Origin: an archaeon
GTDB lineage: Archaea; Aenigmatarchaeota; Aenigmatarchaeia; GW2011-AR5; GCA-2688965
Length of the DNA: 8,659 bases
Reading direction: 5' to 3'
Assembly: GCA_002688965.1 (NCBI GenBank)
Contig: NZEE01000070.1
Coordinates: 1-8,659 of the forward strand
Shown in pieces: positions 1-8,659 of this stretch (position 1 is the stretch's first letter; each line of letters opens with the position of its first letter). The position numbers and the translations under genes were made by a program. Under the pieces are notes generated by a model, which was not told the DNA's origin, did no database searches, and worked only from the letters and a program-made list of their open reading frames with translations.

Positions 1-558
1 AGCTCTGCATCGGTTATTACAATCCGCAATCATATCGAGAAGTTGATGTTACGTGGGTTTGTTCCTAGCATTATTGTGATTGATTATGCTGACATTATGC
101 GTTCGACTAGAAGTTATGATTCTTTGCGACATGAGCTTAAATTAATTTATGAGGAATTGCGAAATTTGGCAATGGATATGGGGGTCCCTGTTTGGACTGC
201 ATCTCAAGCGAATCGGGATTCTGCAAATTCTGAAATTGTTGGTTTAGAGAATATGTCAGAGGCATATGGGAAAGCAATGGTTGCAGATCTTGTTTTATCA
301 CTTTCACGAAAGCCGATGGAAAAATCGACAAATGTGGGACGACTTTTTGTTGCAAAAAATCGTGCTGGAAGGGACGGATTGCTTTTTCCAATTCACATTG
401 ACACATCTCGATCTATAATCAAGATAGTGGATGAATCGACATTGACCCTGGAAGAGGCTGTTAAAAGTGATGAGAATGATATGAAAAGTCTTTTGAAGCA
501 AAAGTGGAATGAGGTCAGTAAATTGCAAATAGCTGCAGCTGGAGAAAATAATGGTTGA
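1..558 (+). CDS. DnaB/gp41-type replicative DNA helicase, C-terminal part (5' end outside window)
   Basis: The frame is open from base 1, so the 185 residues here are only the C-terminal part of a RecA-fold hexameric helicase that would unwind the replication fork. Visible motifs (numbered from base 1): a Walker B strand IIVIDYAD at residues 24-31; ASQANR at 67-72, equivalent to the SQLNR-type motif of DnaB; and KNRAGRDG at 119-126, the basic loop corresponding to the KNRNGPTG-type segment of DnaB. The Walker A region and any N-terminal or primase-interacting domain are upstream and unseen. The divergence from cellular DnaB within these motifs suggests a phage replicative helicase (inference). 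The apparent TTG/ATG starts near base 43 are internal. The stop codon overlaps the nrdJ start by 8 bases, so the two genes are co-transcribed and probably translationally coupled. The family call is fairly secure; the phage assignment less so. Confidence 0.85.
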   Translation, partial: SSASVITIRNHIEKLMLRGFVPSIIVIDYADIMRSTRSYDSLRHELKLIYEELRNLAMDMGVPVWTASQANRDSANSEIVGLENMSEAYGKAMVADLVLSLSRKPMEKSTNVGRLFVAKNRAGRDGLLFPIHIDTSRSIIKIVDESTLTLEEAVKSDENDMKSLLKQKWNEVSKLQIAAAGENNG

Positions 559-3669: not shown

Positions 3670-5205
3670 ATGCTAGAAGTAAAACAACGTGAAAAATTTA
3701 AAAATATCTTGACAGATGAAGCATTGTCATTTGTAGAAGACTTGTGTCATCTTTTTACAGGAAGAATTGATGGGGCTTTGGAATCCCGGGAATATCTTCA
3801 ATTTTATTTTAATTCAGGAGAAAAACCTGATTTTTCTCCTGATACTCAGGAAATTAGAGATGGAGATTGGACAATTGCTGATGTTCCTCCGGAAATTGCT
3901 GATCGTCGTGTAGAGATTACGGGTCCGCCTGATCGTAAGATGATTATTAATGCTCTTAATTCTGGTGCCCGAGTTTTTATGGCAGATTTTGAGGATTCAA
4001 ATTCGCCTACATGGACTAATTGCGTGCAAGGCCAGGTTAACCTTTATGATGCAGTGAGAAAAACTATTGATTATACCAATCCAATAAATGGAAAATATTA
4101 TGAATTAAAAGAAGAACCTGCGGTCTTATTTGTTCGCCCCCGCGGATTTCATCTTCAAGAAAAAAATGTATTTTGGAATGGTAAATCAATTCCAGCCAGT
4201 TTATTTGATTTTGGAATGTACTTTTTTCATAATGCCAAAAGATTAATTCAGGATGGTTCAAGACCTTATTTTTATTTGCCCAAGCTTCAGCATCATTTGG
4301 AAGCAAAAATCTGGAATGACATTTTTGAATATAGCGAAAATTATTTAGATTTAAAACATGGCACTGTTAAGGCGACTGTGCTTATTGAAACTTTACCGGC
4401 AGTTTTTCAAATGGATGAGATTCTTTATGCTCTTAAAGATCACTCTGCAGGATTGAATTGTGGACGGTGGGATTATATTTTTAGTTTTATAAAAACAACA
4501 CAAAATGATCCGAAATGTGTAATGCCTGATCGTGATCAAGTCGCAATGACCCAACATTTTATGCGATCTTATACACAATTATTGATTGCTACTTGTCATC
4601 GTCGTGGAGCTCACGCCATGGGAGGAATGGCAGCACAAATTCCTATTAAAAATGATGAGGCGGCAAATAAGACTGCTTTAGCTAAGGTTTGTGATGATAA
4701 ACTGCGGGAAGTTCTTGATGGGCACGACGGGACATGGGTGGCACACCCAGGCTTGATTCCTTTGGCAATGGAGATTTTTGACGCTCATATGAAAACGCCC
4801 AACCAAATTCATCACCAAATAGAAAATTTTAATGTTTCTATTGGACAAGCAGATCTTTTGTGCGTTCCAAAAGGCACGTGCACAGAAGCAGGATTACGTA
4901 AAAATATTCGAATTGGTTTTCAATATGTGGAAGCGTGGCTTGGGGGAAATGGGTGTGTGCCATTAAATAATTTGATGGAAGATGCTGCAACTGCAGAAAT
5001 TTCTCGTGCTCAAATTTGGCAATGGAAAAAGCATGCAGTTCGTTTGGATAATGGAAAGAGAGTAACTCCTTCTTATTTACGATGGGTATTAAATGATGAA
5101 TTAGGAGAGAGCCTAAGCCTTGCACGAACAATATTTGAAAATCTTTGTTTGGCAAATACATTAAGAGATTTTTTAACCCTAGATGCCTATGAGGAAATCG
5201 CATGA
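3670..5205 (+). CDS. aceB: Malate synthase A, full length
   Basis: Condenses glyoxylate with acetyl-CoA to give malate, the second step of the glyoxylate shunt, in the cytoplasm with Mg2+. The 511 residues match the malate synthase A class (E. coli AceB is about 530), not the larger GlcB/G form. Family blocks in order: [13 protein letters not shown] (103-115), [10 protein letters not shown] (156-165), [14 protein letters not shown] (238-251), [11 protein letters not shown] (265-275), [14 protein letters not shown] (312-325), [12 protein letters not shown] (353-364) and [17 protein letters not shown] (436-452). Expected catalytic and metal residues are all present: R158, E240, D268, D438 (E. 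coli R166, E250, D278, D447). The C-terminal DFLTL block is intact. It starts 15 bases after clpP and its stop overlaps the aceA start. By my sampling, base composition does not differ from the flanking genes, so acquisition is not recent. Very secure call. Confidence 0.97.
5191..5196 (+). promoter_or_regulatory. Ribosome binding site of aceA, inside the end of aceB
   Basis: GAGGAA sits five bases upstream of the aceA ATG at 5202 and within the last codons of aceB. With the ATGA stop/start overlap at 5202-5205, this is a standard arrangement for translational coupling, keeping the two shunt enzymes at linked levels. Confidence 0.75.
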
Positions 5206-6437
5206 TTGATAACGATGGAATGTTAAGATCTTATACATTAAAAGATGTGGAAAATCTGCGCGGTTCTTTGATTGAAGAACATACACTGGCAAGAAAAACG
5301 GCACAAGCATTACGGCGTTTATTAGAAGAAAAGGATTATGTGCATGCCATGGGAGCCGTTACCGGTAATCAGGCAATGCAAATGGTAAAAGCAGGATCAA
5401 ATGCAATATATTGTTCTGGGTGGCAAGTGGCTGCTGATGCTAATGATTCTCATGAAATGTATCCGGATCAGAGCCTCTATGCTGTACATAGTGTTCCTAT
5501 GTTGGTTCAAAAAATTAATAATTCTCTTCGCCGTGCCGATCAAATTGAATGGAATGAAAATGATGGAAAAGCTATTAGGGATTGGTTTGCTCCAATTATC
5601 GCGGATGCTGAGGCAGGATTTGGTGGACCGCTTAATGCTTTTGAATTAATGAAATCCATGATTCGTGCAGGGGCAGCTGGTGTTCATTTTGAAGATCAGC
5701 TATCTTCTGCTAAAAAATGTGGTCATTTGGGAGGAAAAGTTTTAGTACCCGCATCAGAATTTATTAAGAAATTAATTGCGGCTCGATTGGCTGCGGATGT
5801 GATGGGAACGGAAACTGTTATTATTGCTAGAACTGATGCAAATAGCGCTAAATTATTGACATCGAGTGTGGATGAAGCAGACCATCCATTTATTATTGAT
5901 GATATGACCACCGGTGAAGGTTTTTATAGAATTACCGGTGGAATTGATATGGCTATTGCTCGGGGATTGCAATATGCTCCCTATGCCGATCTTTTGTGGT
6001 GTGAAACCAGTACTCCTGATTTAGAAGAGGCACAAAAATTTGCTGATGCAATTCATGCTAAATTTCCCGATAAATTATTGGCCTATAATTGTTCTCCAAG
6101 TTTTAATTGGCGTAAAAATCTAGATGATGAGACAATTGCTAAGTTTCAAAGAGAGCTTGGGATGATGGGTTATAAATTCCAGTTTATTACGTTGGCAGGG
6201 TTTCATAATCTTAATCATTACATGTTTCAATTGGCATTAGACTATAATAAAAGAGATATGCCAGCATATGCAGATTTGCAAGATGCCGAATTTGCTGCAG
6301 AAAAATCAGGCTATACAGCTCATCGTCACCAAAGAGAAGTCGGTACAGGATATTTCGATGCGGTTGCTCAAGTCATTTCATCGGGCGAAAGTTCGATTTT
6401 GGCATTAGAAGAATCAACTGAACGTGATCAGTTTTAA
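5202..6437 (+). CDS. aceA: Isocitrate lyase
   Basis: Cleaves isocitrate to glyoxylate and succinate, the first committed step of the glyoxylate shunt. The catalytic signature KKCGH is at 171-175 with nucleophile C173 (E. coli C195). Other strong blocks are [10 protein letters not shown] (72-81), MYPDQSLY (86-93), ADAEAGFGG (134-142, Mg2+-binding region), VHFEDQL (161-167), IARTDA (208-213), [10 protein letters not shown] (266-275), YNCSPSFNW (295-303) and [11 protein letters not shown] (323-333). The C terminus ESTERDQF keeps the active-site-closing tail seen in E. coli AceA (STEESQF). At 411 residues it is about 20 shorter than E. coli AceA, all at the extreme N terminus, with no internal deletion. 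The downstream aceK kinase/phosphatase of the enteric aceBAK operon is missing; an unrelated peptidase follows. Overlap with aceB is 4 bases. Very secure call. Confidence 0.97.
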
Positions 6438-6447
6438 TAGGCACATT

Positions 6448-6942
6448 ATGAAAAGAATATTGGCAATTTGCATTCCTTTTTTTGTTGTGATGTTTCTCAA
6501 TCCTCAGGTTTTAGCAAAAGATAATGCAGCAATACAATTTACTAAAGATTTTTCATTAATGGATTTTCAGCGAGGATGTCATGATGAGCTCCCGGAAAAG
6601 TATTTGGATAATTTGTGTCGATTGGCTTATAATTTGCAGATTATTCAAGATCATCTTCCTGAAGGTAAAAAAATCAAAATTATTTCAGGTTATCGATCAC
6701 CTAGGTGCAATAAACGGGTTAGCGGTGCTAAGAAATCGCAGCACATGAGGGGTAAGGCTGCTGATATTCGTGTGAAAGGAATGTCGACTAAGAGATTAAA
6801 GCGACTCATTGAACGATTGATCAAGGAAGATAAGATTGCCGATGGTGGGGTGGGATTATATCGAAGACATGTTCATTATGATGTTCGGGATTGGCATGCC
6901 AGGTGGAAGAAAATACGGTATCAAGGGGGAGTATGTGATTAA
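6448..6942 (+). CDS. Secreted M15-type peptidoglycan peptidase (possible endolysin)
   Basis: A 164-residue protein with a clear signal peptide: basic start MKR, a hydrophobic run to about residue 18, and probable cleavage after NPQVLA (residue 23). The mature part has the zinc peptidase M15 pattern (VanY/DD-carboxypeptidase fold): SGYRSPRCN (80-88), SQHMRGKAADI (97-107) supplying H99 and D106, and HVHYDVR (141-147) supplying H143. It should cut peptide crosslinks or termini in the periplasmic cell wall. Four cysteines in the mature part (C44, C57, C87, C163) could form disulfides. The ATG at 6448 is chosen because it begins the signal peptide; an in-frame GTG at 6424 would overlap aceA and bury it. 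The ribosome site is weak (TAGG, 6438-6441). No holin or spanin is adjacent. It could be an export-dependent lysis enzyme or a wall-remodelling protein. Confidence 0.85.
   Translation: MKRILAICIPFFVVMFLNPQVLAKDNAAIQFTKDFSLMDFQRGCHDELPEKYLDNLCRLAYNLQIIQDHLPEGKKIKIISGYRSPRCNKRVSGAKKSQHMRGKAADIRVKGMSTKRLKRLIERLIKEDKIADGGVGLYRRHVHYDVRDWHARWKKIRYQGGVCD
6923..6931 (+). promoter_or_regulatory. Ribosome binding site that fixes the thyX start
   Basis: AAGGGGGAG precedes the GTG at 6935 and lies within the coding end of the M15 peptidase gene. No comparable site precedes the earlier in-frame start codons near 6836, which supports the GTG as the true start of thyX. Confidence 0.7.
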
Positions 6943-7630
6943 AAGAATTGAGCTTTATGAAGACGGCATTGGCTCAGTTGAATATGTTTCACATATGGGA
7001 AGTGATTTAACAGTTGTCAATTCTGCTCGAGTGTCGTTTGGAAATGAAAAACAGGAACTTGATAAAAAAGATGTCAAGCTTATTCATTATTTAATTAAAC
7101 ATCGCCACACTTCCACTTTAGAACACTGCACAATCACATTTCGGTTTAAGGTACCTCTTTTCATAGCTCGTCAACACATGAGACATAGAACATGGTCATA
7201 TAATGAAATCTCTAGAAGATATACTGAGTTTAATATTGAATTTTATGAACCAACACAGTTTCGCACCCAGCATCATTCCAATAGGCAAGCAAGTAATGAG
7301 ACATTGATCAATCCTGAGGTGATGAAAGGAAAAGCTTCTGATGTATTAAGGTTGCATCACAAAATGTCTTTAACACTTTATAACCAGTTTTTAGAAATGG
7401 GAATATGTCGGGAACAAGCACGGGGTCTTTTACCGCAAAACATGTATACTGAATATTATGGCACTGTGAACCTGAATAATCTTATTAAATTTATAGAACT
7501 CCGTACACATCCCGGAGCGCAATGGGAAATTCACAAGGTTGCCATGGCATGTCTTAATATTGCTGAGCAGTTATGGCCAGAGAGTGTGAAAGCCTATAAA
7601 GAGATTCGGAACGAATCATTTCATCCTTGA
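6935..7630 (+). CDS. thyX: Flavin-dependent thymidylate synthase
   Basis: Converts dUMP to dTMP using FAD/NADPH and methylene-tetrahydrofolate, releasing tetrahydrofolate rather than dihydrofolate. The 231-residue product has the ThyX signature RHRxxSxNExSxRY as RHRTWSYNEISRRY at 83-96, plus the conserved C-terminal block ELRTHPGAQWEI (188-199) with R190 in the dUMP-binding region. The QARGLLP segment (161-167) is also typical. The start is set at GTG 6935, giving MIKRIELYEDG and a normal family length; it follows a strong ribosome site. A frame extending back to 6836 only reads through the M15 gene out of phase. The gene overlaps the M15 gene by 8 bases. ThyX is common in phages and frequently found with NrdJ; the two together cover reduction and methylation steps of dTTP supply. 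Very secure call. Confidence 0.96.
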   Translation: MIKRIELYEDGIGSVEYVSHMGSDLTVVNSARVSFGNEKQELDKKDVKLIHYLIKHRHTSTLEHCTITFRFKVPLFIARQHMRHRTWSYNEISRRYTEFNIEFYEPTQFRTQHHSNRQASNETLINPEVMKGKASDVLRLHHKMSLTLYNQFLEMGICREQARGLLPQNMYTEYYGTVNLNNLIKFIELRTHPGAQWEIHKVAMACLNIAEQLWPESVKAYKEIRNESFHP

Positions 7631-7659: not shown

Positions 7660-8469
7660 ATGGCAACCCCTGAAATGAATGTAAGAGGATATCTAAAACC
7701 TGCAGCTGCTTTTCATACTTTAAAAGAGTGGGAAGAAATGGCTACATATTTGCTTGATCTACAAGGGCGGGGGATTGACACTCGCGGCGGTGAGTTGGGA
7801 TGTAAGATGCCAACTGGTTGTGATCATGATGATTTGGATCGTTTTTTGTTGTTGATTGCCGAGTATTTCGGATATCAGTTATCAGAAGAAGTGGATCGTT
7901 GGGATCTATTAACACAGAAAAATGTTTTGGATTTTATTGAAGATTTTGTTAATCATAGGCTTTGGGCGTTTAATACTGAATATGGTCATTATTTTCAAGA
8001 TATTCAGAAATTGAAGTTTACCTTTTTTTATTCCCGTGGCGATATGGAACCTTACGTGATGTTAGATGATGAGTATACAATTCAACTCTATGGATCAATT
8101 TATAATCCCAAGTTATTATGTCACTATACTACTGCTGAAGGTGTTGAGAGAATGATAGATGCTATTAAATCTGGAAATGAATTTGATATATCTTCATTTA
8201 CCGTGATGGATCGTCCATTTTTTCGACCAGAATCTAATATTTTGATAAAATTTATTGGAAATGTTCGGGCTGGATTTCGAAGCGATATTAAATCAATGGC
8301 ATTGGATAATGGGCGACGTGCATGCAATATGCATCGTTTGGAGTATCCTGGTAAGGATGTTAATAATATTTGTTATGAGTTGGATTCTTGTGATGGAGAT
8401 ACTCGAACTAGCCTGTGGAATGAATATATTGCTACTCCTATTGAGATAGTAGAAATTCAAGAACGATAA
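7660..8469 (+). CDS. Conserved-looking phage protein of unknown function; weak ADP-ribosyltransferase-like hints
   Basis: I do not recognise this 269-residue protein. It has no signal peptide or membrane segment and looks soluble and acidic. The N-terminal part (1-125) is rich in aromatic and acidic residues and probably helical. The C-terminal part (about 140-269) looks like a separate compact domain: CHYTTAEGVERMI (149-161), FDISSFT (174-180), GFRSDIKSMALDNGRRA (209-225), RLEYPG (230-235) and SLWNEYIATPIEIVEI (251-266). A start of the form HYT plus helix, a mid-domain SSFT strand and a late WNE before a hydrophobic strand recall the layout of ADP-ribosyltransferase-like folds; this is a guess from pattern only. 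The gene sits between thyX and a DNA glycosylase gene with a good ribosome site, so it belongs to the same early/metabolic cluster. That it is a real gene is well supported; its function is not. Confidence 0.8.
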   Translation: MATPEMNVRGYLKPAAAFHTLKEWEEMATYLLDLQGRGIDTRGGELGCKMPTGCDHDDLDRFLLLIAEYFGYQLSEEVDRWDLLTQKNVLDFIEDFVNHRLWAFNTEYGHYFQDIQKLKFTFFYSRGDMEPYVMLDDEYTIQLYGSIYNPKLLCHYTTAEGVERMIDAIKSGNEFDISSFTVMDRPFFRPESNILIKFIGNVRAGFRSDIKSMALDNGRRACNMHRLEYPGKDVNNICYELDSCDGDTRTSLWNEYIATPIEIVEIQER

Positions 8470-8514: not shown

Positions 8515-8659
8515 ATGACTTGGAAACCACCCAGATCACCATACAGTTTGTTACAGGAAGGTTACTGGCCAGACCAATGCAAGATTCTTGTGTGTTGTTT
8601 GTTATTGAATCAAACATCACGAAAACAAGTTGATCCTATGATTGATGAATTTTTTGAGA
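8515..8659 (+). CDS. MBD4-like HhH-GPD DNA glycosylase, N-terminal 48 residues (3' end outside window)
   Basis: The first 48 residues read as the beginning of the helix-hairpin-helix DNA glycosylase domain of the MBD4 type, which removes thymine or uracil from mispairs. The opening WKPPRSPYSLLQE (3-15), then KILVCCLLLNQTSRK (23-37), follows the start of the human MBD4 catalytic domain (PPRSPFNLVQE, then KLLIATIFLNRTSGK) almost position for position, judged from memory. The hairpin and catalytic aspartate lie beyond the window, so activity cannot be assessed. As a stand-alone protein it has no methyl-CpG-binding domain ahead of it: the start codon lies immediately before the match and is preceded by a strong ribosome site. 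In this context it would act on uracil, thymine mismatches or modified bases in DNA (inference). Endonuclease III or MutY relatives are the alternative. Confidence 0.8.
   Translation, partial: MTWKPPRSPYSLLQEGYWPDQCKILVCCLLLNQTSRKQVDPMIDEFFE

Follow-up and report, generated by a model that had tools for sequence, protein, structure and literature searches.

Viral copies of the glyoxylate shunt

An operon of the two glyoxylate shunt genes, aceB for malate synthase and aceA for isocitrate lyase, has been described from one complete environmental virus genome, the 179 kb marine virus TARA_ERS478052_N000008, which also has T4-like structural genes. Nishimura et al. (2017, PMC5332604), who knew of no earlier aceBA operon in any complete viral genome, suggested that it plays a part in lysogeny. 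Here we report on a stretch of 8,659 nucleotides (contig NZEE01000070.1 of assembly GCA_002688965.1, filed under the archaeal lineage Aenigmatarchaeota), called the window below, in which a complete aceB-aceA pair lies among genes for replication and nucleotide metabolism. We think it probable that the window comes from a large T4-like phage, probably a lytic one, and belongs to its block of replication and nucleotide genes, where aceBA would feed carbon into nucleotides. The 2017 virus, known here by description and not by sequence, is like the present loci in its aceB-aceA pair and its T4-like structural genes, and it has sugar-nucleotide genes of the same sort as one relative of the window, contig G010. 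It is unlike them in being a single genome, whereas here the pair is found on many contigs, in a recurrent slot of a replication block and in some cases with glutamine synthetase nearby. An adjacent aceB-aceA pair together with T4-like structural genes is observed on five relatives (contigs G001, G004, G010, G661 and G674); the window itself has the adjacent pair, and its link to structural genes is by synteny only.

Hurwitz et al. (2013, PMC4053976) also listed both genes among the viral auxiliary metabolic genes of the Pacific Ocean Virome, in passages that give no operon or phage genome context, unlike the loci described here. In Antarctic marine viruses, isocitrate lyase is reported from ones assigned to Pelagibacter and to Woeseiales (spelt "Woesiales" there), and glutamine synthetase from several, one of them assigned to SAR86 (PMC10721903); each of these genes is viral there, and the words "malate synthase" and "glyoxylate" are absent from that text. 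A lyase is likewise reported from lake-sediment viruses (PMC12783922). According to Ha et al. (2021, cited through the review PMC9270025), both shunt enzymes are expressed in marine Mimiviridae; those are giant viruses that infect eukaryotes and are not phages. A review (PMC10452541) states that, when phage HP1 infected Pseudoalteromonas, no genes were expressed more highly than aceA and aceB, at about 3-fold. A further paper, PMC10227523, deals with other enzymes.

A collection of 50,697 phage records was searched for the lyase and malate synthase. Lyase matches occurred in 9 records and malate synthase matches in 4, and the two enzymes were found together only in two 501 kb Salmonella contigs. 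These contigs were judged to be host DNA by their size and annotation, as were four short Salmonella or Escherichia fragments (1.5-4.5 kb). Records labelled as phage that contain aceA or aceB, and that are possibly host chromosome, are AGRM01000005, AFYI01000007, OR850939, OR845679, OR845746 and OR851757. Four records of Acinetobacter phage MD-2021a (57-128 kb), which gave matches of 30-34% annotated as aceA or prpB, are possibly host chromosome DNA as well. In our judgement, phage C48C1 (OQ984149, Kyanoviridae, 156 kb) is the sole accepted phage in the collection with a close lyase, and no accepted phage has a malate synthase. The C48C1 lyase (L020:19992-21233), annotated "hypothetical protein", is 57% identical to that of the window, but it stands alone, the record having no malate synthase match. 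Megablast of the window itself against phage records returned no matches.

The original prediction, made from the letters of the window, knew of no well-described phage with the complete pair. The 2017 genome corrects that statement in part; among the 50,697 phage records there was no accepted pair. The viral aceBA pair is not new, given the 2017 precedent; here it recurs across many related viral contigs. In the open literature, supplements not covered, we found no later account of a phage aceBA pair as a lineage trait, and literature accounts of its recurrence in this slot, of discordant aceA and aceB histories, or of nearby GlnII-type and iron-sulfur (Fe-S) genes were not found either.

A recurrent slot beside replication genes

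Scans of IMG/VR gave 19 loci with a single lyase protein, zero matches with a single malate synthase protein, and then 51 loci with a malate synthase profile; a lyase profile gave 539 matches, of which the best 80 were used, the lyases among these not each having been checked for being viral. Loci were compared for 46 aceB regions plus the window, 47 in all, a set that includes near-copies such as L036/L037, L043/L044/L046 and L056/L057. Sought in this way through viral collections, the neighbourhood of the window proves to be a recurrent slot. The aceA gene directly follows aceB in 41 of the 47 loci; of the remaining six, two have aceA before aceB, two have an intervening gene, and two have no aceA after aceB. 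Within eight genes upstream of aceB, dnaB and nrdJ are both present in 25 of the 47 loci and clpP in 24, the window being counted in each. Bacterial aceBA operons (Bacillaceae, Myxococcota and others) encode the same enzymes, mostly in the same gene order where both are found, but when 61 such loci with aceB were compared, of which 44 span at least 15 kb, not one showed a relative of dnaB, nrdJ or clpP. In the careful tree described below, the malate synthases of bacteria are placed apart from the viral clade.

Five contigs combine aceB and aceA with a terminase gene and a capsid gene of the T4 gp23 type: G001 (267 kb), G004 (202 kb), G010 (178 kb), G661 (88 kb) and G674 (118 kb). On G010 and G674 the run dnaB-nrdJ-clpP-aceB-aceA is present on the same contig as the virion genes, with IscU, amidase and glutamine synthetase genes interspersed in G010 and with Fe-S genes between nrdJ and clpP in G674. 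G661 has dnaB and nrdJ, without clpP. On G001, the aceB-aceA pair lies at the end of the contig, and after it come thyX and the two genes that follow thyX in the window; on G004 the pair is found alone, with none of the surrounding order. G010 additionally encodes portal, prohead protease, tail sheath, SSB, UvsX, SbcC/D-like proteins, DNA polymerase, a sigma factor and GroEL. Synteny with the capsid- and terminase-bearing G010 and G674 supports phage carriage of aceBA in the group to which the window appears to belong, as was predicted for the window from its letters, where the pair was taken for viral auxiliary metabolic genes. The loci L009 and L010, from two IMG/VR data sets according to their identifiers, show 1 difference over 15,703 bases compared. 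Because of this agreement and of the aceB-aceA adjacency in 41 of the 47 loci, a mis-join is unlikely.

Among isolates, the G010 capsid protein comes closest to those of Flavobacterium immuto phages (44%) and Microcystis phage Mel-JY01 (43%), and an uncultured 484 kb phage record is closer (47%) than any isolate. Several other features of G010 may be recorded here. A tmRNA gene (10542-10884) and a tRNA-Ala gene (10290-10365) are predicted in its segment L202. At about 167-178 kb (L202), 4 of 171 open reading frames have an N-terminal pattern near MKI(S/T)(K/R)RQLRRII, and a few others are similar; we take these N-termini to be reminiscent of T4 capsid-targeting peptides. The contig also has, besides ThyX, a match to a second thymidylate synthase of another family (L200:9890-10597 and L200:17385-18413). 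On a different contig, G673 (locus L052), a terminase-like match at 8428-10182 reads through two in-frame TAA codons.

Integrity of the two enzymes

Judged by family matches, conserved residues and selection among relatives, both window proteins look like maintained, working enzymes. The malate synthase scores 762 bits against TIGR01344, malate synthase A (cut-off 594.5), over profile positions 1-510 of 511, and 373 bits against PF01274; the lyase scores 711 bits against NF011645, isocitrate lyase (cut-off 562), and 329 bits against PF00463. A complete pair had been predicted at 3670..6437, and open reading frames occupy exactly that span, with both products above curated cut-offs. Among PDB structures, the malate synthase matches 3cux (4.4e-185) and 3cuz (6.8e-166), aligned over residues 10-480 and 8-508 of 511, and the lyase matches 6lrp (1.5e-180) over residues 6-411 of 411. 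No PHROG v4 family matched either protein at E 0.001.

The malate synthase residues R156, R158, E240, D268 and D438, presumably the catalytic base, Mg ligands and an arginine, are the same in all 43 distinct malate synthases from IMG/VR. In the lyase, KKCGH at 171-175, which we take to be the catalytic signature of the enzyme, and eight other columns assumed by us to be catalytic are unchanged in all 77 distinct lyases other than that of the window (IMG/VR plus phage C48C1). Selection on aceB and aceA in the relatives is purifying. The ratio of nonsynonymous to synonymous change (dN/dS, NG86) was 0.038-0.113 in 7 of 20 pair-gene comparisons, those with dS of 0.2-2, all among relatives; the remaining 13 were set aside because the sequences were saturated or nearly identical or because no value could be computed, and among these the L036/L037 lyase stood at 0.21 with very few changes.

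Discordant histories of aceA and aceB

A careful malate synthase tree of 64 rows was built in which the virus group consists of 30 of the 43 distinct IMG/VR rows plus the window, nine rows being unused, and in which the 29 rows called bacterial include 6 database proteins, three of them unnamed. The 31 chosen viral malate synthases all lie on one side of a single branch with support 98/92 (bootstrap not fully settled), and the bacterial malate synthases sampled lie outside this clade. Four IMG/VR malate synthases in the same tree (L032, L038, L047 and L059) also lie outside it, and in larger quick trees of both enzymes the virus labels do not form single clades, outliers being found among bacteria. 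As to whether viral copies form a clade, the chosen malate synthases do, but not every copy with a virus label.

The lyases of the window-like type A (13 rows) form a clade with support 98/91, or 100/99 when stand-alone IMG/VR lyases are joined to it. Type B lyases, 66-69% identical to type A, occupy the same slot in many of these contigs, and several IMG/VR lyases fall among bacterial ones. The histories of aceA and aceB are firmly discordant. Because type-A rows do not stay together on the malate synthase tree (p=3.8e-5 by the approximately unbiased, AU, test, in which the A label came from the lyase tree), the adjacent aceB and aceA have different histories; on the aceB tree, the aceA type changes five times by parsimony, with at least 4 changes forced by starred branches. 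In pairwise comparisons, the window dnaB is 86% like that of L002 but its aceB only 57%, and its aceB is 73% like that of L021 but its dnaB only 45%. We read the discordance most readily as an exchange of alleles among phages at a single genomic slot. Separate origins of lyase types A and B were considered and not shown: A and B together were not rejected (p=0.194), and the same held for a clade of B by itself (p 0.387).

Gene arrangement of the window

The genes of the window form an unbroken run on the + strand (Table 1), and the genes that had been described, on one strand, are confirmed, in the order helicase, nrdJ, ClpP-like protease, aceB, aceA, peptidase and thyX. The same is true of the supposed cell-wall peptidase and of the similar base composition, GC being 0.36-0.39 across eight genes. 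The gaps of 10-15 bases that had been described are real at the two ends of the pair, with 15 bases between the clpP stop (3654) and the aceB start and 10 between the aceA end and the M15 ATG at 6448, but between aceB and aceA there is instead an overlap of 4 bases (ATGA), the aceA start lying inside the aceB stop. GAGAGG precedes the aceB ATG, and GAGGAAA precedes the aceA start. This layout would fit a single transcript with translational coupling. Promoter-like sites in the window are at chance (32 found, 33.0 expected), and 7 terminator-like sites are found where 4.8 are expected.

Table 1. Genes of the 8,659-nucleotide window, with their positions and the matches on which each name is based
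Feature	Position	Strand	Evidence
DnaB-like replicative helicase, C-terminal part, truncated by left window edge	1..558	+	PHROG 19 DnaB-like 2.9e-32; PF03796 2.1e-10
nrdJ, B12-dependent (class II) ribonucleotide reductase, 826 aa	551..3031	+	TIGR02504 477 bits, cut-off 400
ClpP-like protease, 200 aa	3052..3654	+	PF00574 94 bits; PHROG head-maturation and ATP-dependent protease matches; under NCBIfam clpP cut-offs
aceB, malate synthase A, 511 aa	3670..5205	+	TIGR01344, PF01274, PDB 3cux/3cuz
aceA, isocitrate lyase, 411 aa	5202..6437	+	NF011645, PF00463, PDB 6lrp
M15-family peptidase, endolysin-like	6448..6942	+	PF08291 67.5 bits; PHROG 894 endolysin 1.2e-28 (both scans from 6424)
thyX, FAD-dependent thymidylate synthase	6935..7630	+	TIGR02170 175 bits, cut-off 87.9 (scan from 6920)
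269 aa protein, same gene run	7660..8469	+	75% relative adjoining thyX in L001
Gene start, truncated by window edge	8515..8659	+	85% relative in L001, after thyX and a gene of the 269 aa type

The starts given for the M15 peptidase (ATG 6448) and for thyX (GTG 6935) are our choice, the longest reading frame of the former beginning at 6424. Searches of Pfam, PHROG and NCBIfam with the 269 aa protein gave no matches. The last gene, which we label endonuclease III-like only tentatively, has a homologue in L001 without a PHROG match.

Metabolic genes beside the pair

A gene for a glutamine synthetase of about 340 aa, in our reading GlnII-type, occurs in 11 of the 47 aceB loci and directly before aceB in L010, L011 and L030; examples are L200:6088-7098 and L030:8933-9952. 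The two examples scanned score 285 and 382 bits against NF041605, both under the cut-off of 500, and the best PDB match is the glutamine synthetase 4bax (3.5e-94). Of the 47 loci, 15 have genes for Fe-S carriers of IscU, IscA or Nfu type, and these often lie between nrdJ and clpP (examples L030:7943-8266, L200:3511-3906 and L043:7658-7936). With one example of each scanned, IscU exceeds its cut-off, the IscA type exceeds a subfamily cut-off, and the Nfu type falls well below cut-offs.

Alternative explanations

Several observations weigh against placing the window in the replication block of a T4-like phage. Pfam and PHROG scans of the window found no virion gene, its malate synthase has an identical counterpart on 3 contigs, none longer than 10,824 bases, and the putative phage origin of the window rests on synteny. 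The whole upstream run is present on only 2 of the 5 virion-bearing contigs. Capsid, terminase and integrase were looked for in chosen records, and there the gp23 capsid was found in 4/19 and 4/30 and terminase in 6/19 and 12/36, the terminase tallies having three records in both sets and some weak matches (1e-10 to 1e-12), with many of the records short. In the larger quick tree one malate synthase from Myxococcota, L246, is placed with the viral rows at an open fork (84). Gene comparisons that include the window are saturated (dS >2.6, or not computable), which makes its own dN/dS uninformative. Isocitrate dehydrogenase bears on how the branch point would be controlled. A search for it in 16 records, of which 15 carry both genes of the pair and G686 carries only aceA, gave no match, while 14 of 14 control genomes were positive.

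The absence of a virion gene from the window itself would suit a stretch of bacterial chromosome or a chimeric contig, but the same order is present on G010 and G674 with capsid and terminase, the dnaB is of phage type, aceB and aceA are adjacent at 41 of the 47 compared loci, and dnaB, nrdJ and clpP are missing from all the bacterial ones. Both readings, which we find scarcely credible, were ruled out by this recurrence and by the virion genes on the contigs of relatives. Repeated independent capture of the operon from different hosts, with no phage lineage of aceBA, would explain why L032, L038, L047 and L059 stand outside the viral clade and why several IMG/VR lyases lie among bacterial ones. 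It seems to us distinctly improbable, given that the chosen viral malate synthases all fall on one side of one well-supported branch and that the lyase of the window sits in a clade of its own type, with or without the stand-alone sisters.

Other alternatives accept the phage and assign the enzymes a different use. They might serve mainly for energy or stress relief, succinate passing to the respiratory chain, and not for nucleotide carbon. Hurwitz et al. (2013, PMC4053976) argued for an energy role in nutrient-poor water. The Fe-S assembly genes at 15 of the 47 loci fit such a role, their products being usable for aconitase and succinate dehydrogenase, but the neighbours are NrdJ and ThyX, and no respiratory genes are named among the families looked at. 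The glyoxylate shunt, moreover, yields less reductant per acetyl-CoA than the full tricarboxylic acid (TCA) cycle, and we consider a main role in energy unlikely, if still worth keeping in mind. Alternatively, aceBA might aid lysogeny or pseudolysogeny by helping the host to grow while the phage is carried, as Nishimura et al. (2017) proposed from lipopolysaccharide genes and a zeta-toxin homologue (PMC5332604); G010, too, has nucleotide-sugar genes, GDP-mannose dehydratase and epimerases. In the 16 records, however, tyrosine integrase (PF00589) was found in none, with 14 of 14 control genomes positive, although these records are possibly fragmentary and serine integrases lay outside the search. 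The aceBA pair, furthermore, lies inside a replication and nucleotide block, 15 bases from clpP, in a window whose promoter-like sites are at chance. The recurrent block is some evidence against the published lysogeny explanation, which we regard as quite unlikely, and the lack of tyrosine integrases points weakly to lytic use.

Proposed role

Under the phage replication-block reading that we prefer, the host would be a bacterium and the phage a myovirus, with aceB and aceA forming a two-gene metabolic cassette that would be translated together, in line with the adjoining replication genes. During infection, the phage isocitrate lyase would split host isocitrate into succinate and glyoxylate, and the phage malate synthase would combine glyoxylate with acetyl-CoA to give malate. 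This flow would skip the two CO2-releasing steps of the TCA cycle, so that acetyl-CoA carbon would stay in C4 acids (malate, oxaloacetate, aspartate) and be available for making nucleotides, and that carbon would feed the phage's own NrdJ and ThyX. Because the shunt genes share a replication block with NrdJ and ThyX, and because GlnII-type and Fe-S neighbours fit, the arrangement suggests a supply of carbon for nucleotides. We infer from gene content and order the shared transcript, the time of expression, the flux, the use in nucleotide supply and the lytic use, and we only infer the redirection of host carbon.

A broader proposal, which we offer tentatively and with somewhat more doubt than confidence, is that the shunt is one branch of a supply line that the phage itself runs for DNA precursors, encoded in or beside the replication block. 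AceBA would turn acetyl-CoA into C4 acids and aspartate, the GlnII-type enzyme would provide amide nitrogen, Fe-S carriers would keep aconitase and other enzymes active, and NrdJ and ThyX would complete the line, which would operate in lytic infection, with aceA and aceB alleles swapped in place among phages. The routing of central carbon is usually regarded as the business of the host. That both shunt enzymes are retained under purifying selection beside a helicase and NrdJ suggests that acetyl-CoA carbon may limit phage DNA synthesis.

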